Source: Sergeia podlipaevii (taxonomy: Eukaryota > Euglenozoa > Kinetoplastea > Trypanosomatida > Trypanosomatidae). From it: 64,000 bases of DNA. The DNA lies in contig JASANZ010002242.1 in NCBI GenBank assembly GCA_030849805.1, positions 1-64,000 of the forward strand, in the 5' to 3' direction. Below the pieces are notes generated by a model. It had not been told where the DNA came from. It made no database searches and saw nothing but the letters and a program-made list of their open reading frames with translations. Both the position numbers and the translations under genes were made by a program. Of this stretch, positions 12,104 through 35,411 are shown one piece after another (the stretch's first letter is position 1; every line of letters starts with the position of its first letter).

Positions 12104-14539
12104 ATGCGTAGGGCCGGATTCGCTACCAGAGGAATGGGAGGTACACCCCGTCTTTCTATAAATGGACAGGCATCTCACTCCTTTATAAATCCGACTCGAC
12201 ATAGGGTTCGGAAACTGCGCCGCGGTGCCGTAATCACCGCACTCGTAGTATTGCTTATGTTGCTGCTTGTGGCGCTGGCCCTGTGGCGCGTGAGAACCGC
12301 GGCGGCGCAAGCGGTTGAATTAACAGTCAATGTAGCGGCGCCTCAAAGGTTTCAGAGCAGCCAGTGCCCAGCATACATGTATCGTGTCGAAGATGGAGTT
12401 AGTGGGGCCTCCTTGGTGGGCTCCTCCATTTTAATGTTGTTTTCGAGAGATGTCAACAGTAAAAAAGAGACCTTTTTCTATAACCTTAAAGGCTCTTCTT
12501 CCAAGGACAGAAGCAGCGATTTTGGAGATTGTGCATACAGCCCTGGAAATACGAAGAGGAACTTTGCCGAAGTGGCTGCTTCCTTTCTGTCTTCTCCGTA
12601 CGGCCCTTCACCGAACCCTTTCTTCAACTTCTTTGACGCGTATGGTGCGAGCTTTTGGAGTATCGAGAACGTTACCATCGTGCGGCCACTGCAGATAGAT
12701 GTGGTGTACACTTTTGTGAATCCTTCTGCTCCTTCTTTTGCCGAGCACCTCCGCATTCGCGGCATCCACAATCCCAACAAGGAGCGCCGCTACAATGACT
12801 GGGAAGAGCTACGGTACTCCATGCGAAGCTTGTGGAAGAGCATTAACGCGACCAACGCCATGCAGCAGAGCTTTGCCGCGCTAGATGAGGACCGCAGGTT
12901 TCTCAAAGAGATGGGCTTCACTGAGGCGGAAGACGTGAATTTTGACGAAGCAGCTAAATCATATCGTCAACCTCTGGTTCGCAATGTGTACCTGATGCTC
13001 TCCGCCAAGGACCAGATGCCAGCTTGGCTGAACCCTGAGACCTTCCCAGGCCTCAAAGTGGTTACTCACGCTGACATGTTCCCCGCCGCCAACGAGTCAT
13101 GGATCTTACCAACTCTCAATTCTAATGTTATTGAGAGCGGCCTACATCGCATTCCTGGGCTCTCGCACAATTTTTTATACGTCGCCAATGACATGCTCCT
13201 CGGGCGGCCTCTCTCTCCCTTTGACCTTTTCCGTCCTCTCACCCCGCCACGTCAGCAGCTGTACTACGCCGCGGTCCAGGTCCATCGCCGCGACGGGAAT
13301 GATCCGAGCTGCACCGCAGCGAGTCGCACCAATCGGCGCGCGCTGTTTCTGGAGCCTATTATACATAGTGACACAGGGCGCGAAGACTCGGGAGAAGTAC
13401 CACTGAGGCAAAATGCTGAGACAACAGAGGCGCAGGAGACTGGGGCGATTGTGCGGGAGTGCATGAACCAGCAAGCAGATGCAGCCAATAAACAGCTGTT
13501 GGCACACAAAGGGACCAACGGGGTTGGCGCGGAGGGGGCAACGACAATTCTCACGGTACTCGCGGAGCCTGGCTGGAGGACCTCTGCTGTGTTTGGTAAA
13601 GAGATTGAATTCGGCACTACAGTGCGTGGCGCGGGAGTAGGCAGCTTTTTCTACCATGCCATTGCATCCAAGAGGATGGAGGGAATTCGACCCCCTTTTG
13701 CCTACCCACACATGCCCACACTTATAAAGCGCAATCTCGCCGAGCAGCTCCTTGAACACTGTCTGTTTGACTACACCAACGCCACTCGCGCTGCGTATGA
13801 GCGAGAGATGCACCCGTTCTCTTTTGTCGACTTTTACGCTGTGTATCAACTCGCCATGTATCGTGCGTTAACACGGTTTGTGTGGACCGAGGTGCTGAAG
13901 AGCCACGTTGCCTCTATCGTCACAGGCACACACAGAAAGAACCCAGCTGTCCGCTATGTAGCACAAGAGGCACTCGACGTTGTGAAGCGTCTCGGCATGT
14001 CACACAGCCTGTATTCATTTACATCGCGAGAGTTAAATTTTGACACCATGGGCCCCCTGTACGGCAGCTCCTGGGGAGTGACCATGCAGAACCCTGAACT
14101 GATAGAAGAGCTAGCTCTCTGGTGGCTGCCAGACAGACGCAGGGATAGGGGTCATAAGTTCCGTTCGCTGTCGGAGCTGCGCGACCTTTATGCGGTCCCT
14201 TCTGTATGCATTGCTTCAAGTGATCAGTCGTGTGAGGTGAAGGAGTATCCGCGCCTAGCGGAGAACTACTTCGCGCTCTATCACGACATGTTTCAGCACA
14301 TGGGCCGCGATGCTACCTATCGCTTTGAGATGCTGCAGCACTCGTACAAGTCACTCATTACCGCTGCGCGGCTAGACGCAGAGCATGACAGAATGCCCCT
14401 GTGGATCACATTTAATGACAACTTCCCTCTGGAGACAATGTCTGACGAAGAGGTGAGGCTTGTCAAAGCATCGTTTGCGGCTCTCATGAACACGGTAACG
14501 CAGAACGCACCTAGAGCAGAGTGGGAGAAGTTTGTGTGA
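12104..14539 (+). CDS. Stealth-family hexose-1-phosphate transferase (type II membrane protein), copy 1
   Basis: An 811-residue protein with a basic cytosolic tail, one membrane anchor (residues 41-61) and a large luminal domain. All four Stealth conserved regions are visible. CR1 is IDVVYTFVNPSAP (198-210). CR2 is NDWEELRYSMRSL (231-243) and continues through VVTHADMFP, LPTLNSNVIESGLHRIPGLS and YVANDMLLGRP to about 370. CR3 surrounds PHMPT (535-539). CR4 contains WITFNDNF (767-774). Family members such as bacterial capsule polymerases and animal GNPTAB transfer a sugar-1-phosphate from a nucleotide sugar, making phosphodiester-linked glycans. In trypanosomatids the natural candidate is phosphoglycan (sugar-phosphate repeat) synthesis in the Golgi; that is inference. 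A less conserved insert lies between CR2 and CR3 (about 395-510). The next gene is a diverged paralogue. Confidence 0.9.
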   Translation: MRRAGFATRGMGGTPRLSINGQASHSFINPTRHRVRKLRRGAVITALVVLLMLLLVALALWRVRTAAAQAVELTVNVAAPQRFQSSQCPAYMYRVEDGVSGASLVGSSILMLFSRDVNSKKETFFYNLKGSSSKDRSSDFGDCAYSPGNTKRNFAEVAASFLSSPYGPSPNPFFNFFDAYGASFWSIENVTIVRPLQIDVVYTFVNPSAPSFAEHLRIRGIHNPNKERRYNDWEELRYSMRSLWKSINATNAMQQSFAALDEDRRFLKEMGFTEAEDVNFDEAAKSYRQPLVRNVYLMLSAKDQMPAWLNPETFPGLKVVTHADMFPAANESWILPTLNSNVIESGLHRIPGLSHNFLYVANDMLLGRPLSPFDLFRPLTPPRQQLYYAAVQVHRRDGNDPSCTAASRTNRRALFLEPIIHSDTGREDSGEVPLRQNAETTEAQETGAIVRECMNQQADAANKQLLAHKGTNGVGAEGATTILTVLAEPGWRTSAVFGKEIEFGTTVRGAGVGSFFYHAIASKRMEGIRPPFAYPHMPTLIKRNLAEQLLEHCLFDYTNATRAAYEREMHPFSFVDFYAVYQLAMYRALTRFVWTEVLKSHVASIVTGTHRKNPAVRYVAQEALDVVKRLGMSHSLYSFTSRELNFDTMGPLYGSSWGVTMQNPELIEELALWWLPDRRRDRGHKFRSLSELRDLYAVPSVCIASSDQSCEVKEYPRLAENYFALYHDMFQHMGRDATYRFEMLQHSYKSLITAARLDAEHDRMPLWITFNDNFPLETMSDEEVRLVKASFAALMNTVTQNAPRAEWEKFV

Positions 14540-15305
14540 ACAAAGCAGAAGCCCTGCGTATAGATGTACATGCGTGGGCGTATGGAGAACAACGAGGGAA
14601 TGGCCTTTCTGCTATGTTATTGGGAGAGAGAGAGAGAAAGAGAGTGAGGAAAGATAAACTCATGGATGCACGCGATTGGAGCGTACTTTAGTGAACGCCA
14701 ACATTATTATTTTTTATAAAGTAATCATATATTTGCTGGAGATTCAATAGCAGAGCGCCGAAGCAGATGCGCTTGTCTATGCTTTATCCACTTTTTCTCC
14801 CCTCTGTGTAGGGCAATTTTATATTCAATGCAGTCGTGCGTTGCTGAATGGTTTACAGGTTGTGAATGAATAGCGTTTTCTTTTTTTCTACTGTGTTTTT
14901 GGCATTCCACTTCTTCAGTGTTATTAAATAAGCGATTTTCTTTTTAAAGTGCTATATTGCTATTTGAGTGATCAATACCATCGTCAACGGGAGTTTATAA
15001 CTCGCAGCTAGAGTCTTTTTTTTTTCGCTTCTGAATATATATGTGTGTGTGTGTTCATTTTTTTCCCTTTTTTCTATTTGTTTCAAATACTCTGCTGCGT
15101 TACTTTAGAAGGTATCTCGTTTCAAGATATTTATGCTCCCTTTCATAGACGATACACGAAAAATCTATGCGTACTTTGATTTCAAAGAAAAGGCAAAAAA
15201 AGCATTAACAACAATAAAAAGGATTTCACTGCTTTAAATTGTTACACTATCTGCCTTCAAGATTAGCGACAGTAATTGTGATAATAGTAATAATATTGCA
15301 GTTCA
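14540..15305. other. Intergenic spacer between the Stealth paralogues
   Basis: No gene seen. It has a GA-rich run near 14624-14652, a T-tract at about 15016-15025 and a GT microsatellite near 15041-15052. AG 15300-15301 lies only 4 nt before the next ATG but has no strong pyrimidine tract directly in front, so acceptor choice is uncertain. Confidence 0.45.
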
Positions 15306-18002
15306 ATGATCAACTCAAGTGAATGCTCTTTGCCGAGTAGGCAAAGTATCTCACCGTTAGCTGAGATTGGATTTAGCACCTCCTGCGAGATCGTTGCACG
15401 CTCCCTCTCTTCTCCCTGCCCTACACGGTTGCGTGCTTGTGCAGCTGCTCATGGCATCACATCGAATGCTTCTTTGAATGAATGTTGCATAAGCACGACG
15501 AAGCAGAGTTTCCCGTCAGGCTCGGGTAGTGGCACCAAGTGGGTAAAGTCGCGGTGGACTCGCAAGGGACAGGGCAACAACTCTGCTTTATTAGAGACGC
15601 AGCACAACGTATCGCGTGTAGCGTTTTTCTTCCGCACATGTGTTTGCTTTCCTGTTGCTGCTGTTCTTTTTCTTCTTCTTGCACACACTGCGTGGTCTTG
15701 CATATCTCATTCACGAGCACCTTCTCCATCGCATTCTTCGCTGTCGCGAATACACTCGCTAGAGGTTAAATCTGAAATACCACTTCAGTGTGGGACTGGC
15801 TTTTATCGGCTTCCTGCGGATAGCACTGTATTCATGATGCATGACAGGCGACGTGTTGACAGCCATGAAAAAGAAAATACAGGCAACGGGCATGAGTTGG
15901 ATTACCATGGGTTTGGTGAGGTTGCTGCGGCGTTTCTTGCGACTCCGCACGACGCGAAATCCACAGTATTCTACGACTTCATTCGTCGTCGTGATGCGAC
16001 ACTGTGGACGGTGCAGGAGGAATCCGGCGTGGGACTTGTGGCACGACCGTTTCAGCTCGATGTTGTTTACACCTATGTCAACCCCGCCGCTCCTTCATTT
16101 AGCGGGCACATGCGCGAGCGGGGCCTGTCCACGGGTATCAACAAGCTCTTCCGGGACTGGGAGGAGCTGCGCTTCTCGATGCGGTCGCTTTATCACCACG
16201 TCGTAAATAATTCAGCACTGGAGCAACTAGACCGAAATCTCGCAGAGGACCAGCGGAGACTTACGCAGATGGGTTTTATTGTCAAAAGAGAAGAGATCAA
16301 AGGAGGAGAGGAGGGAGTGAGGGAAGCACAGACTCTTCCTCTTGTGCGCTCTGTCATTGTTGTAGTGTCGGACCCAGACCAAGTTCCTGCATGGCTCAAC
16401 ACTAGCTATCCAGGTGTTCTCATTGTTACTCATGAGGTGCTATATACTGCAGAAGAGAAGGAGGCCCACGCCTTACCTACATTTAACTCGCTTTCTATTG
16501 AGTCTACATTGTATCGCATCCCTGGCCTCACCCGCTTCTATGTGAACATCAACAATGACATGCTTTTTAGTCGGAAAGTGTCTTTGTTTGACTTGTTTCG
16601 CCCTTTAGCACCGCCAAGGCAGACTATGCATTTTGCATCTATCATGAACTCAACAGTCGTAGATGTACTCAAGCAACGTGCACTCACCTTCATGGAGCCT
16701 ATTCTGCATAGCGATGGCTGGGTGCGTCCCTCGACCGTAGTGGAGGATGCGCTTGCTGAGGAAAAGACGAGGAAGAGGGCCAAGCAGAAGAAGAGGGAAA
16801 ACGATTCCATGGAAGGCGCTGCTGTGCCACTCACTCAGCTACAGCAACGGCAGAGAAAAGAGGTGTGGCAGTGCGAGGTGGACTTCAGTGAATTCAGAGA
16901 TGCTTTCACAAGCGCCACGCTAAAGAACTGCTCTGCTCCGTCTCCTTGCTCTTTAGCTGCATTTTTGGCACCACCACTGGCCTGCCCAAACGCACTCAAC
17001 AAGGAGGCTCGCTATGTCACTTTACGATCTCTCCAAGGCGTTGCACCAACTATCGAGTACGCACACATCCCCCACATTGTGGATCGCATGGTAATGAAGA
17101 AGATGCTAGAGGACGAGGTGGATGGCTTTGCGGAGGAGGCCATTGCGGTACGACTGTCATATCAAAGAGAGCACAACAACTTCTCGCCGATTCATGTATA
17201 CACCCCTTACGCCTTGGCCATGCGGCGGGCAGTGGACCGGTATCAACGCTATACAACCTGGAGACAATTCTGGACCGTACGCCAGAGCGCTGCAGGAGCG
17301 ATGACGACACCATTGCATGATGAGACTTTCTTGCCAGAGGACAGCGAGGTGCCTTGGCGGCTGTCGTGCCCGCTTTGCGGAGATAGCAGTGGAGTACACC
17401 AGCAGCATCCTGAACTTGACCATTTGTTGTTGTCACGACAGCACCTCATAGATCGGTCTTCTCAGGGAGAGGGGTGGCAGGAGGACGGAAAGACAGCGGT
17501 AGACCGCATCTTTGATCCGACAGAAGAGGAGGACGATGAGGCAAAAAGAGCTCGAGCACGGTCTGTGAGGCACTCAGGGAAGGATCGCACCACCTTTATT
17601 CAGCGTGAAACCGCTCTTTTAGACCTGGCAAGGCGTGCGAGCCAGTGGCATATTCTTTCTGGTAACTCTGACGAGAAAGCAACAACAACAACGGATAGCG
17701 TTCTTTTTTCAGTTGCGAGAGCAGAACGATATCTTGCCTTGTATACAGATGTTCATCACCACATTCGCGATCTCACTCTGTGGTTCATCATGATCGAGGA
17801 CTACCTCCGTCTCGCAATCGCCGCCAACGCAGCAGCGAAGAAGGCGCAGGCGCAGCAGCTGCCTTTGTTTATTACCATCAACGATGACATTAGAAATGAC
17901 GTGTTGAGAAACAATGAGGAGAAATTTTTGCTTCTCTTTCAAGCTGTATTTGCCAAGTGCACAGGAGGTGTCCCAGCGGCACCCTGGGAGATTGCAAGAT
18001 AG
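15306..18002 (+). CDS. Stealth-family hexose-1-phosphate transferase (type II membrane protein), copy 2
   Basis: An 898-residue paralogue of the preceding gene with an unusually long cytosolic N-terminus: the membrane anchor is at about 105-128. CR1 is LDVVYTYVNPAAPSF (251-265). CR2 is RDWEELRFSMRSL (283-295), followed by VVVSDPDQVPAWLN, VTHEVLY, LPTFNSLSIESTLYRIPGL and NINNDMLFSRK. CR3 contains AHIPH (586-590), and CR4 is LFITINDD at 854-861 near the C-terminus. The block VNPxAPSF...RG is shared with copy 1, but the segments between conserved regions differ in length and composition, so the duplication is old. No later in-frame Met would keep the anchor, which favours ATG 15306. It probably acts in the Golgi lumen; donor and acceptor sugars cannot be read from the sequence. 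Confidence 0.9.
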   Translation: MINSSECSLPSRQSISPLAEIGFSTSCEIVARSLSSPCPTRLRACAAAHGITSNASLNECCISTTKQSFPSGSGSGTKWVKSRWTRKGQGNNSALLETQHNVSRVAFFFRTCVCFPVAAVLFLLLAHTAWSCISHSRAPSPSHSSLSRIHSLEVKSEIPLQCGTGFYRLPADSTVFMMHDRRRVDSHEKENTGNGHELDYHGFGEVAAAFLATPHDAKSTVFYDFIRRRDATLWTVQEESGVGLVARPFQLDVVYTYVNPAAPSFSGHMRERGLSTGINKLFRDWEELRFSMRSLYHHVVNNSALEQLDRNLAEDQRRLTQMGFIVKREEIKGGEEGVREAQTLPLVRSVIVVVSDPDQVPAWLNTSYPGVLIVTHEVLYTAEEKEAHALPTFNSLSIESTLYRIPGLTRFYVNINNDMLFSRKVSLFDLFRPLAPPRQTMHFASIMNSTVVDVLKQRALTFMEPILHSDGWVRPSTVVEDALAEEKTRKRAKQKKRENDSMEGAAVPLTQLQQRQRKEVWQCEVDFSEFRDAFTSATLKNCSAPSPCSLAAFLAPPLACPNALNKEARYVTLRSLQGVAPTIEYAHIPHIVDRMVMKKMLEDEVDGFAEEAIAVRLSYQREHNNFSPIHVYTPYALAMRRAVDRYQRYTTWRQFWTVRQSAAGAMTTPLHDETFLPEDSEVPWRLSCPLCGDSSGVHQQHPELDHLLLSRQHLIDRSSQGEGWQEDGKTAVDRIFDPTEEEDDEAKRARARSVRHSGKDRTTFIQRETALLDLARRASQWHILSGNSDEKATTTTDSVLFSVARAERYLALYTDVHHHIRDLTLWFIMIEDYLRLAIAANAAAKKAQAQQLPLFITINDDIRNDVLRNNEEKFLLLFQAVFAKCTGGVPAAPWEIAR

Positions 18003-18562
18003 CGAAGGCCCCTGCGGCTCTTGCTAAGCCTTTTTTCATGCATGTATCGCTTTCTTGCTTCTCGGTAGTTCCTTCTGCTTCAGTATGTGACGACTTTTTA
18101 AAAAAACCTCTGATATCACTCATTTTTTTTCTCTATTTTTTTTCGCGTGGGGAACGCGACAGCATACAAACAATGGCTACGGTTAAGTAAGGAAGCAATA
18201 CCGCTATTTAGGAAGTCTTGTGTGCTTGACTTGGTTCTGGTATCGACAGCGGCTACGCATGCAACGAGATGGCGTCTTTCTTTCCTTTTTTTGCTGGGAA
18301 GAAAGGAGGGCTGCTGTATGCTTTCACTAGGTCATCATTCGCTGTACATACTAAGAGGAAGTAGACGTAGACGTTTTCAAGTACTTCTTTTTGCTTCAAT
18401 GTATGCTTTGTGCTTTTGCTATGTACGTGGTTTTTTTTTTGCGTTTTTTTTTTCTCCTCATTTACGCATTCTTTTCTCAGTGGGAATGATAGAGTGCCGA
18501 GAGGGTGATTGCTATTTCATATTATTGTTGCGTATTATATGCAAGCTACTCATTTTTTTTTC

Positions 18563-18765
18563 TTTTTTGAAGTGTTTATTGCACAATGTGTTCATCACTG
18601 GCAAAGCAAGAAAATAAAACATCAATACCAATTAAGTACCCGCTATTACATTGCCTACGATCTCTCATCACGTGTTTTTTCTTTTTGCTTGTATACATTT
18701 TACTTTGCTCATACATCAACTGCATTGACTTCTGGCTTTTTTTGTTTTTCATATATATATATAGA
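18563..18765. repeat. 203-bp direct repeat, copy A (left of gap)
   Basis: This stretch matches 18885-19087 base for base with only three substitutions that I can find (in tacgatctctc/tatgatccctc and gtatac/gtacac). The two copies lie immediately on either side of a run of N. It is either a genuine tandem duplication or an unmerged allelic/overlap artefact of scaffolding. Confidence 0.9.
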
Positions 18766-18884
18766 NNNNNNNNNNNNNNNNNNNNNNNNNNNNNNNNNNN
18801 NNNNNNNNNNNNNNNNNNNNNNNNNNNNNNNNNNNNNNNNNNNNNNNNNNNNNNNNNNNNNNNNNNNNNNNNNNNNNNNNNNNN
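18766..18884. other. Assembly gap (119 N)
   Basis: An unresolved run of N between two nearly identical 203-bp copies. Reading frames reported across it are meaningless. The real distance is unknown and may be zero or a longer repeat array. Confidence 0.98.
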
Positions 18885-19087
18885 TTTTTTGAAGTGTTTA
18901 TTGCACAATGTGTTCATCACTGGCAAAGCAAGAAAATAAAACATCAATACCAATTAAGTACCCGCTATTACATTGCCTATGATCCCTCATCACGTGTTTT
19001 TTCTTTTTGCTTGTACACATTTTACTTTGCTCATACATCAACTGCATTGACTTCTGGCTTTTTTTGTTTTTCATATATATATATAGA
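18885..19087. repeat. 203-bp direct repeat, copy B (right of gap)
   Basis: Second copy of the repeat starting at 18563, same length and three differences. It ends in the same TA-rich run and then continues into the pyrimidine tract that serves the next gene. Confidence 0.9.
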
Positions 19088-19225
19088 AACAAATTTATCT
19101 ATTCACATGCTCACTCCCTTTTCCTCTCTTCATCCCAGAAGGTGGGAACATAAGGAAGGCGGTGATCAACAAAGCGTTTGCATGCAAAAAAAAAAAATAC
19201 TGGTACAAGTAGGGGAAGAGGAAGA

Positions 19226-22200
19226 ATGTTTCCCCAGGCGCGACGGGGGACTACGCAGCTGCTACGACTTTATGGCGTTGTACCCCGCTTGTGGGCGAAG
19301 AGTGGCCCTTTCTTTTCTAGCCTCATGAACACAGCCATTCTAGTATTCCTATACATGGTTGGTATTTTAATGCTTCTTCAATCATGGTATTTGTTTTTCA
19401 TTAAAATAAGTGGCGTGCCACCGACACAAGGACAGCAGCGACAACGGCAGCAGCTCTTTTCATTCTCTGCGTTTGCTCTAGTGGCAGGGTCTATTGCTAC
19501 TGCCAGCTTGGCGCACATTCTCCTGCTATCACTTGTGCTTGTGAGCATACCAAACTCCACGCCGGAGCTTGTGAGGGGCTTGAGTGTACGCGGGGCTCGT
19601 TGGATGTGGGCCATGTCACTTGCTGTCCTATGTGAAGTAAAGGATCTTGCGACGCGACGGAGAAGATGGGGCTTTGTGCAGCATTTTCGCAAAGGTGGCT
19701 TGACTGGTGAGCTGGGGCTTAACGCAGGCAGCTCTTCTGCCTCTCAGGCTCTCCAACGTATTATGCCTGCTAGTCGAAAGCATTTTTGTGGTCTTTCTCC
19801 GTATGCGCGCGAGAAGGCACGGCACTGTTGGCGTTGCTGCCTTGGCGCTAAGCAGTCTTTTCAGTGGTGGAGGCGGTGGTACATTCTTATTCTCCTCTTC
19901 CCCTTCGCCGCTATACTCGTCATGTACGTTGTTGTGTCCGCCTCGATCCCGAGGAAGTATCAACATACTCAAGATATTGTTATGGCTATGACGCGTGGTA
20001 TATTTGATCTCATTCTACTCACTCTTGTCGCTGCCACTTTGCTTGTACAGCGCACAAACATGCTATTTGCTTCAGCGTGCAAATGCTTGTGTAGCAGTAC
20101 TAGTAGCAGTCTGTCTGCAACATCGGCTGCCGTCGCAGCGGTATCAACATCAGCAGCAGCGGCTTCGTCTCTTGTTGATTCCGATAGCGAGGTCCCTAGT
20201 GGTCAGATTGACGTTGCTATTGTCAGCAGCAGCATCATCATCAGTGACTGTGATAACGCTAACGGTGAGGTGCAAGAGAAGTGGGCGGAGAAGACTCTGC
20301 TGCTGTCTGCTGAGACTGAATTGCAGAACCGACGCAGCGCCACACTTTCACCACTTGGAGGAGTACTTGCTTTCTCGGATATTGAGGAGAGGCAGCAGCC
20401 GCGTCGCCCACTTCTTCCTGGTCTCCTCTTGCTTCTTTTTGTGCTCCTGCTAGGGCTTTTTGCGTTTTTTGACACTCTTGTTGCCGCTCTCACATTCGAC
20501 ACGGTTGCTGAAATGCGGGCTACTGTTCTAGGCGATTTGCCAGGGCGCAGTATGGACTTCTGCGAGATCGAGGGCGGCACACTTGATACCTCAGCGCTAA
20601 GGAGGGCGTGGGTGTTGCCCCGCGTGATGCCACGACGCATGTTCAACTTTTTCACAGGCAGTGAGCAGTGCGTAGAGTCCTATTCCCCTCACGTGGCCTT
20701 CGTGGACGAGGAGACCATGGACATGCTGATTGTGTCTCCAAAGTGTCCCACGGGTCTTCTCACGTCTGGAGGGCAATTCACAAGCACTGGGCTCGTTACT
20801 AGTGCTGCTGCTACTGCTGCATTGACCTTGAAGTATAACGGGGTTCAGCCACGGATTTACGTAGAGTATACCTTGCATAACGAGCTCAGTAGTGACACCT
20901 CGTTAAAGTCTCCAGCTGTTCCTATTGGGAACCGTGCATACCACGAGCGGCTCCACTCTCTTTACGGAGGCAAGTCGCCTCCTGCTGGCTTGCACGTTCA
21001 TCGTGATCCTGTCTCGAAAGAAATCGTAGCGGTTGAGGTGGACCCAGCCTCCATCCGCCGAGTAACACGGAGGCCACAGACTGAGCGTGAGCGGCAGCTG
21101 CGCGCGCGGTGGCCGGCGAATGATGAAGTGCTGGAAATACCTCTAGGGTCGTCCGCTACCGTCACCGTTCGTTGCGAAGCCATTGAGCACGAGGAGTACT
21201 TCGTGTACCCACTCCGCAACCCGTCATCAGCTTTACTAGAGAGTGGAGCTGGAGTTCTCAAGGAGTCCGCAGGGTCAACTATGAAAGCAGAAGCGGCGGT
21301 GACAACAGCAACAGCACCCCCGGCAAATGTAGTGATGCTGATGTTGGACTCTGTAAGTCGACAAGAAGTCCTGCGCTCTCTACCGAAGTTTTCAGCATGG
21401 ATGCGTCGCTTACAGCACGAGATGAGCGCTTCAGCCCTGCCCACTGCAGCGGCGTCACTGCTGCCGCAGCGCAGACACCTAGTCCTTGAAGGTCGTGGCC
21501 ACACCACCATGGGGCATAGCACAGGGGGTAATTGGGTGCCATCGCTCTCAGCCTGCATTGCTCTTCAAGAAAAGGATTACGGCACTCCATGTGCGTATCA
21601 CCACTACACGCAGACGCTTCTGTTTACCCAAGTGAAGCAACGCTATGGGGATGCCATGGAAACCTCGCTTACTGCAGGTGTGTGCGAGGACGCACTGAGC
21701 GTACACTTCGGGGGCAAGGACGTCAACTCTGACGGGTTCGGTGGACCTGTGAAGGGAATTCTTGATCGGTATCTGTATGGCCCGATGTGCCATGTGGACT
21801 ACCCTTCCATCTCCAGTAATTTCCGTGGCGCGTACAGTGCTGTGAAGCGGTGCATTGGGGGTATGCACGTACACGAGCACATTCTCAACTACACTACAGC
21901 ACTCTTGCACACACAGCTTGAGGAACGGCGGCGCGGAGGCCGCTATTTTTTCGATGTTGCATACTTTATGGAAGGCCATGAGGGCACTCACGCTGTACTG
22001 CATCTTGTGGATGACGCACTCACCGCCTTCTTGGAGAACCTGCGCGACAACCTTCTTTTCTTTGATGATCCTCAAAACGTTCTTATTGTGCATTCAGATC
22101 ACGGAAGTCATATTGGCCCATACTATCTTTCTAGCGAGGCCGGAAAGGTAGAGCGTGCGCTGCCTCTTATGCTTTTTGTGATTCACCCCAATGCTCTTGA

Positions 22201-22501
22201 CGTGGTAGACGCGCGTAAAGGAGGAAGGCCCGTTGGTACTGCTGTGAACATCTTTATGAATCGGACCATGGGCTTTACAACCCCAGTAGACCTCTATTTA
22301 ACTCTTGCTGACCTTCTTGGAGTAACCATCACCGCGTACTCAAATGCCTTTATGCGAGCAAAGTGGACTCCCGTATCCATGTTTGACAGTCTGGACAAAA
22401 AGCACAACAATGCCTTACGAATGAAGGGAAGACGGGCAATCATGCAATTGACAAGCAACTATTCCGACCAGGCGGCTCAGTTTTGCCATTTTCCCATGTA
22501 G
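19226..22501 (+). CDS. Polytopic membrane protein with DUF229-like alkaline-phosphatase-superfamily domain, copy 1
   Basis: A 1,091-residue protein. About five hydrophobic segments lie in the first 420 residues (about 35-60, 78-108, 217-240, 255-275 and 396-420), with a Ser/Ala-rich loop at 290-350. The C-terminal domain begins near 700 with NVVMLMLDSVSRQ. Asp708 and a nearby Ser fit the first metal ligand and nucleophile region, and HSDHG (956-960) is a typical second metal site. The block FFDVAYFMEGHEGTH also fits DUF229/sulfatase-like proteins. A conserved juxtamembrane module (MFNFFTGSEQC, about 472-482; VRCEAIEHEEYF) is shared with the next gene. Membrane helices before an alkaline-phosphatase fold recall phosphoethanolamine and phosphoglycerol transferases. 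A phospho-group transferase or hydrolase acting on the glycan made by its neighbours is my inference. The start is the first in-frame ATG after the predicted acceptor. Confidence 0.85.
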   Translation: MFPQARRGTTQLLRLYGVVPRLWAKSGPFFSSLMNTAILVFLYMVGILMLLQSWYLFFIKISGVPPTQGQQRQRQQLFSFSAFALVAGSIATASLAHILLLSLVLVSIPNSTPELVRGLSVRGARWMWAMSLAVLCEVKDLATRRRRWGFVQHFRKGGLTGELGLNAGSSSASQALQRIMPASRKHFCGLSPYAREKARHCWRCCLGAKQSFQWWRRWYILILLFPFAAILVMYVVVSASIPRKYQHTQDIVMAMTRGIFDLILLTLVAATLLVQRTNMLFASACKCLCSSTSSSLSATSAAVAAVSTSAAAASSLVDSDSEVPSGQIDVAIVSSSIIISDCDNANGEVQEKWAEKTLLLSAETELQNRRSATLSPLGGVLAFSDIEERQQPRRPLLPGLLLLLFVLLLGLFAFFDTLVAALTFDTVAEMRATVLGDLPGRSMDFCEIEGGTLDTSALRRAWVLPRVMPRRMFNFFTGSEQCVESYSPHVAFVDEETMDMLIVSPKCPTGLLTSGGQFTSTGLVTSAAATAALTLKYNGVQPRIYVEYTLHNELSSDTSLKSPAVPIGNRAYHERLHSLYGGKSPPAGLHVHRDPVSKEIVAVEVDPASIRRVTRRPQTERERQLRARWPANDEVLEIPLGSSATVTVRCEAIEHEEYFVYPLRNPSSALLESGAGVLKESAGSTMKAEAAVTTATAPPANVVMLMLDSVSRQEVLRSLPKFSAWMRRLQHEMSASALPTAAASLLPQRRHLVLEGRGHTTMGHSTGGNWVPSLSACIALQEKDYGTPCAYHHYTQTLLFTQVKQRYGDAMETSLTAGVCEDALSVHFGGKDVNSDGFGGPVKGILDRYLYGPMCHVDYPSISSNFRGAYSAVKRCIGGMHVHEHILNYTTALLHTQLEERRRGGRYFFDVAYFMEGHEGTHAVLHLVDDALTAFLENLRDNLLFFDDPQNVLIVHSDHGSHIGPYYLSSEAGKVERALPLMLFVIHPNALDVVDARKGGRPVGTAVNIFMNRTMGFTTPVDLYLTLADLLGVTITAYSNAFMRAKWTPVSMFDSLDKKHNNALRMKGRRAIMQLTSNYSDQAAQFCHFPM

Positions 22502-22935
22502 GTGGTGACCTACATTGGTCGTTTTTTTTTACTTTTTATATGAGTGGTGTTCTTTTCTCCACTTTTTGTGTGAAAAGAGCGCTCCACATGTACGGGGGAA
22601 TGTATTGCATGGAGGGACATACAACTTTTTTTTTGTTTTGCTGCTCTGTTATTACAAAATATCGAAGATCACAGTTGCATATTTAAAATACGAAAATAAA
22701 AAAGAGCAGTACACGCAATACGCACATTGGCGAGCAAGTCTTTGTTTTACTCCTTGGATTTATTTTCTCCCCATTTCTCCTCTTTACTTTTGTCGTCTTC
22801 ACTAGTGCAATACACTTCTGCCTACCATATATATATAGAATAATAATTTTAGAAAAAGAAGACTCGCTAGGCCAAATAGCGGACTGAGAGAGAGAAAAAA
22901 AGATCACACAAACACACGAAGAACAAAGCGAAACA
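22502..22935. other. Intergenic spacer
   Basis: No gene seen. A strong T/C tract at 22744-22800 precedes AG 22804-22805, the likely acceptor, leaving a 5' UTR of about 130 nt. Confidence 0.55.
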
Positions 22936-25800
22936 ATGCGGCGAAGCAGAGGACCTTGGAGCCTCAATTTTCGATTTAGGACTGTTGTGCGCACCGCTGC
23001 CACTATATTGACTGCTCTTCTTGCAATTTTATGCATATTTCTTTCCTGGCATCATCTTTTAAGGAAGACGCACATGAACAGAGGGTATACAAAGACTGCT
23101 CTCCTGTTACAGGAGCTGTACTCTGTCCTTTTCTTTTCACTAGGCCACAGTTTTTTTCTGACGCTGGTGGTGCGTCGTGAACCGCCTCGAAAACTGATTG
23201 ACTTCACTTGCTTTGTGATAAGGAAAGTGATTCCTGGCAAGCTCTTTGCGTCAGACTTCTCAAATACATCCGAAGAGGATCTTGAAGATGCACAGAGTAA
23301 AAGCGTGCTGCACAGGAATGTGAGACAGACGTCATCCTCCAAGTACGTCGCTGGTCTCTGGTATTCAGCTGCTGGTGAGCGCGCAATGAGTGGTCTATCG
23401 CACAATACCTCACAGCAGATGCCGCATCGAAGCGGCAGACTTGGCTTTGCTACCGTGATGGCCGCATCGTTTTTTGTTGTAGTGTGTGCGCACTTTATCG
23501 TGCATTGCTCTGTACCAGCTAAACATAGGCAGTCGCAGGAAATTGTGCTTGGCCTCGTGCGCTTTGGCATCGACCTGTTCGCTTTTCTATTTTATATTGT
23601 TTCTGGCGCTAGTGCCGCGGATGGCACGTGTACATTCGCAGCAGCAACAGCAGCAGGAGCATCAGGTGATAATGGTGGGCGTCGAGGTCTGCTGCCACCA
23701 GCTGTTGCGGATGCTACTGCGTTGCCACCGCACTCTCTTAGGACTCGCCGACGCTGGCGACTGGTTCGCATTGCACTCGTGCTGCTGCTTTTCTTTGTTC
23801 TCACGATGAAGGTTATGAGTTTCTTCGCTAGCGTTGACACCATTGAACACCTTCAACTTGGTATTTTAGGTTCGTTGAACCCATGCGATGCAGTCCCAGG
23901 CCAAATGCTTGACCCACGGCTGCGAAAATCATGGGTGTGGCCGGCATACACACATCGGCGCTTCTTTAACTTCTTTACGGGTAGCGAGCTTTGCGACACT
24001 CCTTCTCGTGTTCGTATTGGCTACATTGATGTTGCTGCCAACATGCTTGTGGTCTCTGCTGTTTGTCAGGATGGCACGAAGCCTCGAGTGCTGCTAGAGA
24101 CACCAGACAACAATGAAATGCACGGTGGCGCTGACTTTGACCTCCCTGATGTCATTTCTGGCAATGCGCAGTACAAGGAAGATCTGGAGGCTCGGTACGG
24201 CACCGAGGCCAAGGCACGCAGTGAGGGCGTAGTAACGCACAGAGATGCCAAAACTGGCCTCATTACTGAGGTTGACATTGATCCTGCCACACTCAAGGTG
24301 GTGAAGCGAGAGCCAAAGAGCTCTGAAGAAGCACACGCCCGTCTACGATGGCGCAGCACCGAAGATGGGACGCATAATGTGTTTGAAGTGCCATTGGGGA
24401 GGTCTGCGGCGTACATGGTCAGGTGCGAGGCGATGCAGCATGAGGACTTTTTCTTGCATCCAGTGACGCTTTCTCTCTTTCCTGGGGGCTCCCTCCCCGT
24501 GGAGGAGGGGCGCCCGGGCACAGCGGGAAAGTGTACCATGGAGAACAACGATGTCAGCACCAATAGCCCTACTGCTAGTGCTGATGCTGAGGCCAAAGCC
24601 ACTATTGAGCCTGCAGGGAATGTTCTTGTGCTGTTGTTTGACGCTATTAGTAGAGAGGAGATCGTACGCACGCTGCCTCGTTTCACCCAGTGGATGCGTG
24701 AGTTCAAGAAGAATGGCGCGACGCGCTCTGGGCATTTGGTAGTGGAGCCTGTAGCTCAGACAACGCTGGGCTTGAGTACAGCTGGCAATCTGTGCCCTGC
24801 GTTCTCAGGCACAACGGCCAGGGCTCAAGGCATAAAGGTGGACGTGAACCCCGTCGAGGATTTTATGAACCACACAATTTTTGTGAAGGGAAAGGCACAG
24901 CATGGTCACACCCTCAATACCGCCCTTACCGTTGGTTACTGTGATGACATGCTGCAGATGGTATTTGGCAATAAGAAGCCTAACAGCGGCTCAGGAGGTC
25001 CAGCGCCTGGTGTGGACTATTATATGTATCAACCTTTGTGTCACCTTGAGTTTTCTGGACTATTTGGCAACTTTAAAGGTCCATACAGCATCACCAAGAG
25101 ATGTATTGATGGCCGCAACGTGTTTGACTACCTGTTTGACTACACAGTGGCACTACTGAGGAGACAGTTGATTGAGAGGACACAGGCGCTTGAGCAGGCG
25201 TCGCTGCCAAAGCGTGAATCGCGCACTCGTAAGGAAGGCGCCGCATGCGGCGGCTCTAGCAAGTTTTTTTTTGACGTCACCTACTTTATTGATGGCCATG
25301 AGGGAACACAAGGAGTCATCACTCTCATAGATCAGGCACTTGTTGATTTTATGAAAGTGTTGGCTGATAAGCTGCGTTTCTTTGACGACCCGCTTAACAC
25401 CTTTATCTTCTCAGCGGATCATGGCAACCACATGGGCCACTACTATGAGTACACGCGTGCAGGGCAGCTGGAGCGCACCTTGCCCGCCATGGTCTACGTT
25501 ATCCATCCAGAGGTCCTCGCTCGTGTAGATCGAAGCAAAAATCGTCAGGAAGGTAAAGCGCTGAAGAACTTCATGGCCCGCACCACGCAGGTGACCACGC
25601 CGCTAGATCTCTATCTCACCTATGGGGATATCCTAGGGGTTCCTCTGACTGTGTACGCTGGCTATGCCACTACAGCTGTGAAGCCGGCGTCATTATTTGA
25701 CGAGCGTGAGAGGCAGATTACGAGTTGCAAAGATTTTGCCATGCCCCATGAAGATTATGTGTGTGTACTAGACTTCTGCGTGTCGAAGCTGAAAATGTAA
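22936..25800 (+). CDS. Polytopic membrane protein with DUF229-like alkaline-phosphatase-superfamily domain, copy 2
   Basis: A 954-residue paralogue of the preceding gene with the same layout. Hydrophobic segments lie at about 19-38, 58-80, 170-190, 205-224 and 275-297. Then come a luminal module with FNFFTGSELC and VRCEAMQHEDFF, and the catalytic-type domain. The latter starts at NVLVLLFDAISRE (Asp569, Ser572) and carries SADHG at 826-830 plus FFFDVTYFIDGHEGTQ. The equivalent of the first paralogue's DSVSR is DAISR, so the Asp and last Ser are kept. It is shorter in the loop regions and lacks most of the Ala/Ser-rich insert. Sharing of the juxtamembrane and catalytic blocks shows an old tandem duplication, in parallel with the duplicated Stealth genes just upstream. 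Confidence 0.85.
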   Translation: MRRSRGPWSLNFRFRTVVRTAATILTALLAILCIFLSWHHLLRKTHMNRGYTKTALLLQELYSVLFFSLGHSFFLTLVVRREPPRKLIDFTCFVIRKVIPGKLFASDFSNTSEEDLEDAQSKSVLHRNVRQTSSSKYVAGLWYSAAGERAMSGLSHNTSQQMPHRSGRLGFATVMAASFFVVVCAHFIVHCSVPAKHRQSQEIVLGLVRFGIDLFAFLFYIVSGASAADGTCTFAAATAAGASGDNGGRRGLLPPAVADATALPPHSLRTRRRWRLVRIALVLLLFFVLTMKVMSFFASVDTIEHLQLGILGSLNPCDAVPGQMLDPRLRKSWVWPAYTHRRFFNFFTGSELCDTPSRVRIGYIDVAANMLVVSAVCQDGTKPRVLLETPDNNEMHGGADFDLPDVISGNAQYKEDLEARYGTEAKARSEGVVTHRDAKTGLITEVDIDPATLKVVKREPKSSEEAHARLRWRSTEDGTHNVFEVPLGRSAAYMVRCEAMQHEDFFLHPVTLSLFPGGSLPVEEGRPGTAGKCTMENNDVSTNSPTASADAEAKATIEPAGNVLVLLFDAISREEIVRTLPRFTQWMREFKKNGATRSGHLVVEPVAQTTLGLSTAGNLCPAFSGTTARAQGIKVDVNPVEDFMNHTIFVKGKAQHGHTLNTALTVGYCDDMLQMVFGNKKPNSGSGGPAPGVDYYMYQPLCHLEFSGLFGNFKGPYSITKRCIDGRNVFDYLFDYTVALLRRQLIERTQALEQASLPKRESRTRKEGAACGGSSKFFFDVTYFIDGHEGTQGVITLIDQALVDFMKVLADKLRFFDDPLNTFIFSADHGNHMGHYYEYTRAGQLERTLPAMVYVIHPEVLARVDRSKNRQEGKALKNFMARTTQVTTPLDLYLTYGDILGVPLTVYAGYATTAVKPASLFDERERQITSCKDFAMPHEDYVCVLDFCVSKLKM

Positions 25801-26087
25801 TATCTATCATTATAAGCAGCACAGTAAGAAAGGGCATGCATGCATGCATACATATGGACAGATAGGTGTATCCACTACTCGGCCTTTTTCTTAATCTTTT
25901 CTTTTCGTGGGGGTGCGATAGTGGTACTGTGCTTCGGCGTGGTTGTACTAAGAGGAGAGGAGAGAGAAAGGAATGTAAGAATCCTACTGATACATTGAGG
26001 AAAGGAGTGCATGATAGGGCAGCTGGCCATAAAAGCGAGTGTTTCTTTTAAAGCTTTTGCGATCAGAAGCGAATGTTACATGATGTT

Positions 26088-26118
<31 letters not shown>

Positions 26119-26927
26119 GTACTATTCTCTTCTTTTCTTTTTAACTTATTCTTGCTTAACATGCGAAGACTACGTGAAAATTGGAGTCATTATAGAAAAT
26201 TATCCTGACTGAAGCATGTGCACAAACAGCACTTTGAGAGAGGGAGAGAGAGGAAGCCACAAATACAAAGCATTACGGACAAAGCCTAACATTGCCTTCA
26301 TATGCATATGTGCTGTGAATACTTTGGGAGAAAATAAATAAATGAGAAAGAGTAGATGTTGCTATACTGGGTCTGCGCTTATCTTTTTTTTTTTGTATGG
26401 TGCTCACGAGGTGACGAGAGAGAGCATTGCTCTGTTTGAGAGATCTTATCAGCGGCGTGTATGGCACTAGGGCTTATATCAAACAGTTCCCTCTTATTGA
26501 GGTTCCTTGTACTTGCCTATTGGTCCTGGACTTCCCCTCTCTATCTCTACAAACATTTGTGATAGAAGTTTACTATGACTTTTTTAAAACTTCATTCCAC
26601 ACATTCCTGGGTCTCCTCGACAATGACCGTTGGGTTCTACAGGGGAAGAGAGGGTTGAGGAGGGGGGGGGGGGGAAGTTCTTTGCACTTCGTAAGATTAC
26701 GTCTTATTATACTAAAACTGCCTCAAAAAGATAGATAAAAGATAAAAGAAATTTGACTGTATGCTTAAGGCATGGGTGCTTTACATGCCAACACCGAATA
26801 TACTTCTCTTCTCTCGTCTTTTCCCCTCTGTTCCGTATTCAAAATAATAAAAATAGTTATAATAATAACTTTAGGCGGGCAAGTTGGGTGCTATCGCAAC
26901 TACTTCCATACGTACGCATTGTCAGAA
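25801..26927. other. Intergenic spacer
   Basis: No gene seen. It has a TA/TG microsatellite near 26088-26120 and a run of 13 G at 26662-26674. The tract 26810-26838 followed by AG 26855-26856 (or 26873-26874) is the likely acceptor for the GH47 gene. It lies downstream of the first in-frame ATG at 26772, so that ATG should not be in the mature mRNA. Confidence 0.6.
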
Positions 26928-28715
26928 ATGAGGATCAGCCTTTTCTTTCTGCTAGTGATAGTATTTTTTTTGTTTTATGGTGGTGTCACTGGCACGCTCA
27001 CAGGAATAGCAGACGAAGTCAAATGTTTTTCTGGACCTGGACGTACCACTCTTGAGGACCGCAAACCCCATCCCACTCAAGTTGAGATGCTTCCGTTTGT
27101 AGATGATATGCTGGAGCACGCACTGCACGGCTACACCACATTTGCGTTTCCACACGACCATCTCTCTCCCCTTACAGGCTCATTCAAGGATAATATGGGC
27201 GGGTACGGGGTGACCTTGGTGGACTCTCTCGACACACTTGCACTAACACGACGTTTTACACAGTTCCGAAGGTGGGCTCGCTGGGTGGAGGAGAATATGA
27301 GTTTTGACAGAGATGTGATGGTATCCAGCTTCGAGACCAATATTCGCAGTGTTGGAGGACTCTTGTCAGCTCACTTTATGTACGAGGAGGGCATTGTGCC
27401 CATTATGCGTGCTGAGCATGACTATCATGGAGGGCTCTTGCGTCTGGCCATCGATCTTGCGGATAGGCTATTACCGGCGTTTGACACCCCTACCGGAATT
27501 CCTTACGGCTCTGTTAACTTGCGCCACGGCGTACCGAAGGGAGAGATCGATGTCAGCGCAAACGCGTGTGGCGGTACATTCTTGCTGGAGTTTGTTACGC
27601 TTAGTCGTATCACAGGCGATGCCAAGTATGAAATAGCGGCTCGCCGCGCTGCGTGTGCGCTGTTTGATCTTCGACACGCACGCACGTCACTTATGGGCAA
27701 CCATATTAACATCAGCTCCGGTAAGTGGACGCTAGAAGTGGCGTCTGTGGGAACGGCAATTGACAGCACGATTGAATACGCACTCAAGTCGCATATCATG
27801 ACTGGTGAGTTACCGTTCTGGCGTCAGTTTGAGGTATACAGGCGATCTAGCAGAAAGTATCTTAAGCGCAATGGCTTTTATGTTGAAGCACTGATGAATA
27901 ATCCATATTTTTTGGTGGGCTCGACGCACAATTCTCTCGCCTCTTTTTATCCAGGTCTCCTTGAGCTTGCGGGGCACCACAGCGAAGCGGAGGAGCTGAT
28001 ATATCACGCACACACGATATTCAAAGCACTCGGTGCTATTCCTGAGGAGTACTCTATTAAAAACTTTGCTCCCCACACAGAGCACACGCAGTATCCCTTG
28101 CGGCCAGAGCACATCGAGTCCATCTACTTCTTGTACCGTACCACTCGGGATCCTGCGTTTCTAGAGATGGGAAAGGAGGTGGCACTCGCACTGCACTTGC
28201 GCACTCGCACACCGTTTGGTTTTGCCTCTCTGAAGGACGCTGGGCTTCCTCATGGACGCCACAGTATGGAGGACTGGATGGAGAGCTTCGCCATCTCAGA
28301 AACGCTCAAGTACCTGTACTTGCTCTTTGATGAAGAAAACTCGCTTCACCGCACGTGCAAGGATAGCGGGAGTCATGTGGGGTGGGTGTTTACAACGGAG
28401 GCACATCCGCTTCCAAACACAGCGGAGTGGTGGCCTCCATCTGCTCTTCATGTTAATGCAGCTGGGAAGAAGGGAAGTGGATCAGGTCCAAAGGATGAAA
28501 GGCGTATGGATAGGAGTGCGAAGGCATTGCATGCAGCGAGGCTGCGACACGTGCGGGAGCTGGGTGAGCAGGCGATGCTGGGTGCAGTGCATAGTGGGGA
28601 CATGATGGGGAGGCAGAAGGTAGAGGAGGAGGGAGGTTGCGTCATGTGCTCCTACTACTGCCTGAACCATGCTGCGCTTATTGTTGATAGACTCAGCTCG
28701 CGAATTCTGCATTAA
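26928..28715 (+). CDS. EDEM: EDEM-like GH47 alpha-mannosidase
   Basis: A 595-residue protein with a signal peptide or anchor (residues 1-19) and a full GH47 domain of the EDEM type. Landmarks are TLVDSLDTLAL (96-106), SSFETNIRSVGGLLSAHF (133-150, acidic Glu136), SVGTAIDSTIEYALK (273-287, acidic Asp279), YPLRPEHIESIYFLYR (389-404, acidic Glu394 and Glu397), and FTTEAHPLP (488-496) with the calcium-binding Thr. EDEM proteins trim mannose from misfolded ER glycoproteins to mark them for degradation. Here it directly follows four phosphoglycan-type genes, so it might instead trim their products. The frame is open to ATG 26772, but the predicted acceptor at 26855-26874 and the signal peptide both favour Met at 26928. 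Confidence 0.92.
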   Translation: MRISLFFLLVIVFFLFYGGVTGTLTGIADEVKCFSGPGRTTLEDRKPHPTQVEMLPFVDDMLEHALHGYTTFAFPHDHLSPLTGSFKDNMGGYGVTLVDSLDTLALTRRFTQFRRWARWVEENMSFDRDVMVSSFETNIRSVGGLLSAHFMYEEGIVPIMRAEHDYHGGLLRLAIDLADRLLPAFDTPTGIPYGSVNLRHGVPKGEIDVSANACGGTFLLEFVTLSRITGDAKYEIAARRAACALFDLRHARTSLMGNHINISSGKWTLEVASVGTAIDSTIEYALKSHIMTGELPFWRQFEVYRRSSRKYLKRNGFYVEALMNNPYFLVGSTHNSLASFYPGLLELAGHHSEAEELIYHAHTIFKALGAIPEEYSIKNFAPHTEHTQYPLRPEHIESIYFLYRTTRDPAFLEMGKEVALALHLRTRTPFGFASLKDAGLPHGRHSMEDWMESFAISETLKYLYLLFDEENSLHRTCKDSGSHVGWVFTTEAHPLPNTAEWWPPSALHVNAAGKKGSGSGPKDERRMDRSAKALHAARLRHVRELGEQAMLGAVHSGDMMGRQKVEEEGGCVMCSYYCLNHAALIVDRLSSRILH

Positions 28716-34118: not shown

Positions 34119-35411
34119 ATGGAGATCCATGTGTTTGACTTTGATAGCACTCTTTTTCACTCTCCAGCTCCAGATGAGAATTTTGTCCGCTCTCTCTATG
34201 GCATCACTACACTCAACCGTCTCTATGTCCCTTTGAGTGACAAGGGACTAGGGTGGTTCCAGAGCATACACTCTCTCAGCCCCCCAGTCGTGCCTGAGAA
34301 CCCAGACGTGGCACAGTGGTACGTGACACCTGTGGTGGAGCAGCTTCGCGCGGTGGCGGCCCGCAAGCCACATCCTCCTCTCATTTACGTTCTCACAGGG
34401 CGAGATCAGAAGTATCGCCAGCGGATAGTGCACCTGCTCGACCACGCCGGGCTGCTTCAGCACATCACCGAGGTGTTTCTCAAGCCACACGAGGTGTTTG
34501 GCACCATCAAGTTTAAGATGAACAAGTTTTTTACGCTTCTCATGAAGCACAATCCTGCTCAACTCTACTACTACGAAGACAATCTAGAGATGGGAGGAAG
34601 GCTGGTCGAGTCATTTCGCTATTTGCAGACGACACTGTATGGCAAGGCTGATTTCCGCGTCCTACCTCTCCCCGAGATCTCTAGCGGTGACCAGGAGACG
34701 GCAGGGGCGGAAGGGGCCGAGATTACCGTGGAGGACCTTTTTAAGCATGGTAGACGTCATCGCTGCGCCACCACTGTATCTGCAGAGGACGGTCTTACGC
34801 AGCAGGAGGGCGAAATGGTAGAAGAGGCAACATCAGCTGCTGCTGCTACTCCTTCGCCTTCTCCGGCTCAAGAGCGTGCTGTTCGCCAAGCGAAGCGCTG
34901 GATGGAGGGCACCATCCAGTTCTACAATCGTCACGATTGCCATCCTCAATCAGGAGCCCCGGAAAAGGTCTCCTTTCGTATTCCACCACCCTTTCGATTT
35001 ACCCTGTTTATTGTCCCGCGCGAGCACGCAGGCCGCGCAGACTCGATGCTGTCAACGGCGCAGACGCAGGCGCTGGTGGATAGGCTCATCAATGATCGCA
35101 AAGAGTACGATGGGAACGGGGGTGCCACCGCGTCGGAAGCAGTTGGGAGAGGGCAGCGCGACCGTGGTCGTGGTGGCCGTGGAGACAGTCATGGTCGTGG
35201 TGGCCGTGGAGACAGTGATGGTCGTGGTGGCCGCGGAGACAGTCATGGTCGTGGTGGCCGTGGAGACAGTGATGGTCGTGGTGGCCGTGGAGACATTCAT
35301 GGTCGTGGTGGCCGTGGAGACAGTGATGGTCGTGGTGGCCGTGGAGACAGTGATGGTCGTGGTAGCGACCGTGGTCGCGGCGGACCTTATGGAGCTCCTC
35401 ATCGGCAATAG
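34119..35411 (+). CDS. HAD-superfamily (Swiss-army-knife RNA-repair-like) protein with RGG repeat tail
   Basis: A 430-residue protein. The first 175 residues are a HAD hydrolase-like domain: FDFDST (6-11) supplies the nucleophile and general-acid Asp7/Asp9, YVLTGRDQKYR the motif II Thr, and YYYEDN the acidic metal site. This matches the HAD_SAK_1 (Swiss Army Knife RNA-repair-like, DUF2410) family. Residues about 175-345 are less conserved, with an Ala/Glu-rich linker. The C-terminus (about 345-430) is made of Gly-Arg-Gly-Gly-Arg-Gly-Asp repeats, an RGG-type RNA-binding and arginine-methylation substrate region. A polynucleotide 5'- or 3'-end-processing role is the natural hypothesis; the substrate is not evident. 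Confidence 0.88.
   Translation: MEIHVFDFDSTLFHSPAPDENFVRSLYGITTLNRLYVPLSDKGLGWFQSIHSLSPPVVPENPDVAQWYVTPVVEQLRAVAARKPHPPLIYVLTGRDQKYRQRIVHLLDHAGLLQHITEVFLKPHEVFGTIKFKMNKFFTLLMKHNPAQLYYYEDNLEMGGRLVESFRYLQTTLYGKADFRVLPLPEISSGDQETAGAEGAEITVEDLFKHGRRHRCATTVSAEDGLTQQEGEMVEEATSAAAATPSPSPAQERAVRQAKRWMEGTIQFYNRHDCHPQSGAPEKVSFRIPPPFRFTLFIVPREHAGRADSMLSTAQTQALVDRLINDRKEYDGNGGATASEAVGRGQRDRGRGGRGDSHGRGGRGDSDGRGGRGDSHGRGGRGDSDGRGGRGDIHGRGGRGDSDGRGGRGDSDGRGSDRGRGGPYGAPHRQ
35166..35354 (+). repeat. Seven tandem 27-bp units encoding the RGG repeat
   Basis: Units of 27 bp (ggtcgtggtggccgtggag followed by acagt and cat/gat) run head to tail from 35166, 35193, 35220, 35247, 35274, 35301 and 35328. They encode GRGGRGDS(H/D), with one unit reading DIH. 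Near identity at the DNA level points to recent expansion or homogenisation, and copy number probably varies between alleles. Confidence 0.93.

Follow-up and report, generated by a model that had tools for sequence, protein, structure and literature searches.

Do neighbouring genes that all appear to act on glycans form one pathway, or are they chance neighbours kept together by a conserved gene order? The question is raised by a 64,000-nucleotide stretch of DNA from the trypanosomatid Sergeia podlipaevii (the window; contig JASANZ010002242.1 of GenBank assembly GCA_030849805.1), in which five consecutive genes, all on the plus strand, occupy positions 12104-28715. Open reading frame (ORF) calls and Pfam matches identify them as two Stealth genes, two DUF229 genes (alkaline phosphatase superfamily) and a GH47 gene. 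A preliminary description of the locus had proposed that all five act in one phosphoglycan pathway. Its coordinates proved exact, and the Pfam searches that it suggested bore out the family assignments, with Stealth_CR2, DUF229 and Glyco_hydro_47 all above cut-off. Our best reading is narrower: the Stealth genes, A and B, would act in a phosphoglycan pathway, the DUF229 genes would do so too, with less confidence, and the GH47 gene is set apart. Specifically, we put at somewhat under one half (about 0.45) the probability that genes 1 to 4 are an inherited cassette for secretory-pathway phosphate-linked glycans and that gene 5, their neighbour, serves a different function. The new result of the present analysis is that, in three related species, the donor halves of Stealth A and B have been homogenised.

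Stealth A (gene 1, 12104-14539, plus strand, an ATG-initiated ORF of 811 residues) and Stealth B (gene 2, 15306-18002, likewise, 898 residues) score 81.3 and 69.9 bits against the Pfam model Stealth_CR2, for which the cut-off is 39.4. These matches lie at 12968-13234 in gene 1, in the donor half that carries D363, and at 16332-16601 in gene 2. The preliminary description had credited both genes with complete CR1-CR4, which stands on profile alignment, on the catalytic columns and, for gene 1, on fold, but not on Pfam: Pfam matched neither CR1 nor CR4 in either gene, and CR3 in gene 2 only, below threshold (17061-17213, 15.2 bits, cut-off 24.2). CR1, CR3 and CR4 were found in order on profile alignment to GNPTAB and in our Stealth alignment (made without P0031, P0034 and P0035; profile A2 additionally omits P0022). 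The CR3-equivalent of gene 1, in the acceptor half with H536 and R567, has approximate limits 13682-13828, and its CR4-equivalent, with N771-D772, 14393-14527. Residues R241, D363, H536, R567 and N771 of gene 1 align with human R322, D408, H956, R986 and N1151, whose roles are described in PMC11418123, and gene 2 has the same letters in all five alignment columns. Taken with the profile alignment, those roles assign the donor side of the human enzyme to CR1-CR2, and its acceptor side, with the base, to CR3-CR4. The model of gene 1 has a Stealth GT-A-like fold, and its best solved match is GNPTAB (PDB 7s05 and 7sj2). The membrane and secretory architecture claimed at the outset is borne out by hydropathy: in gene 1 a single strong hydrophobic segment at residues 42-60, in a type II-like arrangement, precedes the Stealth catalytic domain, and gene 2 has one weak segment (residues 102-120) followed by CR1-CR4. 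By CR2 score, CR order and catalytic residues, genes 1 and 2 are predicted to be Stealth sugar-1-phosphate transferases.

We searched the 23.4-Mb genome in six frames with family profiles, using 14 named genomes as controls. Stealth_CR2 found five loci, the two described here and three elsewhere (on contigs C284, C414 and C265), and matched none of the 14 controls. The proteins on C284 and C414 exceed the CR2 cut-off as whole proteins, have a sub-threshold CR3 and give weak matches to profile A2 (E about 1e-11); both (L011, 4404-9557, and L012, from 4078) are very long, with large insertions. The locus on C265 (L006) is interrupted by the contig end and did not reach E 1e-3 with profile A2.

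To compare A with B we used every named species for which both sequences were available, three Leishmaniinae (P0012/P0023, P0013/P0027 and P0016/P0026). P0022, from Porcisia, is A-like and so was not counted among the pairs, and P0025, a B-type protein from a named Leishmania, was not paired. The half-trees were set to exclude any sequence contributing no more than 80 residues to the half concerned. The C-half tree shows the A-B pair to be old: it places gene 2 with the B proteins of Leishmaniinae (support 0.75), and at a node supported at 0.999 gene 1 and the A proteins part from gene 2, the B proteins, the outgroups and P0028. In the N-half tree it is the A and B proteins of one species that cluster together, with support 0.999 in Novymonas and 0.82 in Leishmania donovani; in Leptomonas pyrrhocoris they are identical. 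The donor halves (CR1-CR2) are near-identical between A and B in all three species. ABB37_02075 and 02076 of L. pyrrhocoris are identical over 251 consecutive residues spanning CR1 and CR2, the L. donovani pair over 227 that end within CR2, and the Novymonas pair over 162 that take in CR1, with CR2 blocks 83-100% identical and different membrane stems ahead of the identical run. The acceptor halves (CR3-CR4) of A and B, by comparison, are 24% identical in L. pyrrhocoris, 25% in L. donovani and 27% in Novymonas. Between species, donor halves are 74-75% identical and orthologous acceptor halves 51-58%. Because the donor halves of A and B are more alike within a species than between species, the pattern points to repeated gene conversion; recurrent assembly error in independent genomes is less likely. 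One further protein, the Stealth A of Leishmania major as annotated (P0020, LMJF_23_1120), stops before CR4 and has one catalytic position changed, unlike the L. donovani copy, and may be decaying or misannotated.

Because the human donor residues lie in CR1-CR2, and the acceptor residues and base in CR3-CR4, homogenisation of one half suggests that A and B use one sugar donor and two acceptors. As lumenal, type II-like enzymes, both would bind the nucleotide sugar through CR1-CR2 (R241 and D363) and the acceptor through CR3-CR4, which would also supply the general base (H536, R567 and N771); the sugar-phosphate-acceptor phosphodiester would form in a single step, the mechanism proposed for GNPTAB. 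The paralogues probably share a donor and differ in acceptor; for example, one might initiate a chain that the other extends or branches.

The DUF229 proteins of gene 3 (19226-22501, plus strand, an ATG ORF of 1091 residues) and gene 4 (22936-25800, likewise, 954 residues) score 59.3 and 48.6 bits against PF02995 (cut-off 25) and are the only two DUF229 matches in the genome. The model also matched three of the 14 controls, one of them over the cut-off; it therefore catches other superfamily members too and, of the three models, has the lowest specificity. Gene 3 has six hydrophobic segments (residues 33-414) ahead of its alkaline-phosphatase-superfamily domain and is a divergent paralogue of gene 4, which has five (residues 17-297) ahead of a hydrolase or transferase domain, so that the earlier view of two membrane proteins with DUF229-like domains holds. 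The tree of this family joins gene 3 to P0010 at support 0.91; the two have long branches, and the split between genes 3 and 4 may be either old or lineage-specific. In gene 4 the domain covers residues 557-954 (24604-25797, plus strand) with invariant D569, T615, D828 and H829, and its model has an alkaline-phosphatase-superfamily fold with metal-site Asp and His. Formylglycine sulfatases carry the core signature Cys/Ser-x-Pro-x-Arg at the nucleophile. None of 12 sequences has it at the aligned site, where all 12 keep the T615 position; gene 4 and P0005 each contain one stray match to the signature at another place in the domain. T615 is a candidate nucleophile. LtaS and EptA move a phospho-group from lipid through a threonine intermediate, and genes 3 and 4, as polytopic enzymes, would in the same way probably transfer a small one (such as phosphoethanolamine or glycerol phosphate) from lipid to glycan. 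A profile search of the PDB with DUF229 gave no significant relative (best a choline-sulfatase, E 0.3), and gene 4 alone found nothing relevant there. Two candidates were dropped: a MARVEL match in gene 4 fell below the Pfam cut-off, and a bacterial origin was set aside after one scan of GTDB contigs with two short patterns from alignment A1, in which none of the 30 pattern-matched stretches encoded a relative.

Gene 5 (26772-28715, plus strand, an ATG ORF of 647 residues as called) is a GH47 protein, as first described: it scores 341.4 bits against Glyco_hydro_47 (cut-off 22.9) over profile positions 1-454 of 455. Its start is probably Met53 (26928), directly ahead of a signal-peptide-like stretch, which would give 595 residues compared with 597 for the Trypanosoma brucei protein. 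The acids E188, D331 and E446, which we take to be E330, D463 and E599 of ERManI, are kept in 98-100% of 51 aligned rows. The genome holds one full GH47 match and a partial one on contig C524 (23.2 bits, cut-off 22.9); none of the 14 controls was matched. In the PDB, the EDEM1-named entry 8zpw (192.9 bits) is level with 29te, named as an alpha-1,2-mannosidase (192.4), and human ERManI entries reach 171.8 bits or less. Among the best 120 of 1576 GH47 matches, the named animal rows are mostly EDEM2, some EDEM3 or plain alpha-1,2-mannosidase, and the trypanosome rows carry the name mannosidase IB. PMC2797082 classes T. brucei Tb927.8.2910-2940 as EDEM and includes them in RNA interference tests of endoplasmic reticulum quality-control factors. 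This work, the best match to EDEM1, and the kept acids make endoplasmic reticulum quality control, as a probable EDEM-like mannosidase, the default role of gene 5. No NCBIfam model matched any of the five proteins above its cut-off.

Part of the gene order recurs elsewhere. Consecutive locus tags in L. pyrrhocoris carry A (02075), B (02076) and DUF229 (02077), and the order is the same in Novymonas (768400, 768500 and 768600), so the neighbourhood Stealth A-Stealth B-DUF229 appears to be old. Judging from equal contig sizes, the Novymonas GH47 gene apparently shares a 70,079-base contig with these three, and one 16,930-base contig apparently carries both Stealth A and GH47. Each homologue search covered about 8000 best candidates, and we read presence and absence from species-named rows only. 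Among the matches listed, each named species has one DUF229 protein, compared with two in the window; the 10 DUF229 matches include a named Phytomonas and no row named Leishmania or Trypanosoma. The 25 Stealth matches include no row named Trypanosoma or Phytomonas. Nine rows named Trypanosoma, and none named Leishmania or Leptomonas, occur among the best 120 of the 1576 GH47 matches. Among named matches the three families thus appear to be distributed independently, though rows lacking a species name could conceal exceptions. A T. cruzi transcript with DUF229 is mentioned in PMC10913370.

The strongest competitor to the four-gene cassette, though doubtful, is that order alone was inherited: two pairs of tandem paralogues would lie beside an EDEM gene by chance, their families serving unrelated steps. 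A review, PMC4413820, describes trypanosomatid gene order as broadly conserved, with little sign that proximity means shared function; conserved order alone is therefore no proof of one pathway, and the conservation found in L. pyrrhocoris and Novymonas, the synteny comparison that the preliminary description had called for, is a weak test. The apparently independent distribution of the families also fits chance, and two of the five apparent coincidences in the run are tandem paralogues. Against chance, three glycan or phosphoryl-transfer families stand in one run, and none of the flanking ORFs tested has a glycan-enzyme Pfam match above cut-off. (Those ORFs matched a leucine-rich repeat protein, a papain-like protease, HIT and formyltetrahydrofolate cyclo-ligase; CH, F-box and methyltransferase matches were sub-threshold, and the others had no match.) Moreover, both DUF229 genes of the genome adjoin two of its five Stealth loci.

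Several points count against the cassette of genes 1 to 4. The three other Stealth loci could perform the same chemistry. The window's own A and B are not homogenised, with 36% identity in the donor half and 27% in the acceptor half. In named Leishmania, Stealth A and B were found and DUF229 was not, which means that DUF229 is not generally needed for Stealth; and if the L. major annotation is right, A cannot be essential for phosphoglycan synthesis there. The gene 4 model is of modest quality (mean predicted local distance difference test score 67, below 60 around T615), and its fold matches to sulfatases, phosphatases and transferases are inseparable (Z within about 2).

A more specific version of the cassette is possible but unlikely as a whole. 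L. donovani reportedly has distinct initiating and elongating mannosylphosphoryltransferases. A and B could match these as the long-missing kinetoplastid sugar-phosphate transferases, with a donor module, homogenised by gene conversion, for one nucleotide sugar such as GDP-mannose and two divergent acceptor modules; DUF229, in the lineages that keep it, would modify these chains with a phospho-substituent.

The original proposal, in which GH47 joins the other four to make, decorate and trim one phosphoglycan, now seems improbable. The genes are consecutive, and the 70,079-base and 16,930-base contigs apparently place GH47 with Stealth genes again; the T. brucei EDEM genes, however, have been studied as quality-control factors (PMC2797082). 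Gene 5 itself looks EDEM-like, and GH47 occurs in Trypanosoma, for which no named Stealth or DUF229 match was found. Least probable is a mannose-6-phosphate-like tag, with GH47 trimming N-glycan mannose, Stealth adding sugar-1-phosphate to it and DUF229 editing or uncovering it: this would connect all five genes and suit both the GNPTAB match and a phosphohydrolase superfamily, but the hydrophobic segments and threonine of DUF229 look more transferase-like, and no mannose-6-phosphate receptor is known in trypanosomatids. Nor need relatives of GNPT belong to that pathway, the Drosophila PTase being judged outside it in PMC11418123.

Other features of the window lie outside the cluster. Three small hydrophilic plus-strand ORFs, beginning 17 kb downstream, start with MGxxC, which predicts myristoylation and palmitoylation: 45394-45735 (113 residues), 46988-47485 (165 residues) and 49620-49958 (112 residues). 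Across both strands of the window, no other ORF of 50 residues or more starts with this motif. For the second ORF the genome gave no further match; the third contains 33-base tandem repeats and lies in an AT-rich block with few long ORFs (48001-52000, 35% GC compared with 43% and 52% in the adjoining 4-kb blocks). Apolipoprotein matches in two small ORFs were below cut-off and were dropped. The three MGxxC ORFs are reminiscent of Leishmania HASP surface proteins. By number, the HASP locus (LmjF.23.1040-1088) is close to Stealth A, LMJF_23_1120, and for Leptomonas seymouri PMC2946902 reports N-acylated repeat proteins at a syntenic locus. The window may hold the same locus in a more distant genus. 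A search with a Leishmania spliced-leader exon pattern, allowing up to 2 mismatches, gave no match; by sequence, the trypanosomatid affinity of the window comes from its nearest named homologues. Close to the end of ORF 34119-35411, a 27-bp tandem repeat (35165-35363, 7.4 copies) encodes RGG-type repeats of about nine residues (GRGGRGDSD).

Leishmania proteophosphoglycans carry phosphate-linked glycans, and PMC8724618 describes phosphodiester-linked glycans in both T. cruzi and Leishmania; according to PMC3630849, kinetoplastid sugar-phosphate transferase genes were unreported as of 2013. A proteomic table in PMC9769760 names L. major LmjF.16.1010 a Stealth CR3 protein, which means that Leishmania genes already carry the family name. 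Among open-licence papers, searched by title or abstract start, we found no description of the cluster and no functional study of trypanosomatid Stealth genes. Stealth A and B are testable candidates for the missing transferases, and an adjacent pair with intact catalytic residues, whose donor half is common and acceptor half different in three Leishmaniinae, is a concrete pair to test. The pattern suggests an enzyme family that gains new acceptors while its sugar donor stays.

Among known systems, gene 5 is like T. brucei EDEM (48% identity over 91%) and animal EDEM2 in its GH47 domain and conserved acids, and differs in being a single full copy adjoining Stealth and DUF229 genes. LtaS, EptA, EptC and YejM have a polytopic topology and a nucleophile threonine. 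The DUF229 proteins share with them a superfamily domain behind a polytopic N-terminus and a threonine at the presumed nucleophile; they differ in their Pfam family, and the fold matches to LtaS and EptC are inseparable from those to sulfatases. Compared with CpsY of Mycobacterium tuberculosis and other bacterial Stealth enzymes, A and B are membrane-anchored eukaryotic proteins in a tandem pair. They resemble GNPTAB in the fold of the gene 1 model, CR1-CR4 order and all five catalytic positions, but have no other GNPTAB domain according to Pfam and carry long insertions in the CR2-CR3 and CR3-CR4 intervals. Their relatives by sequence and C-half tree are the Stealth genes of Leishmania chromosome 23 (LMJF_23_1120 and L. 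donovani A and B), which differ in that no row named Leishmania is among the DUF229 matches, the L. major A is annotated without CR4, and the L. donovani donor halves are homogenised while those of the window are not.
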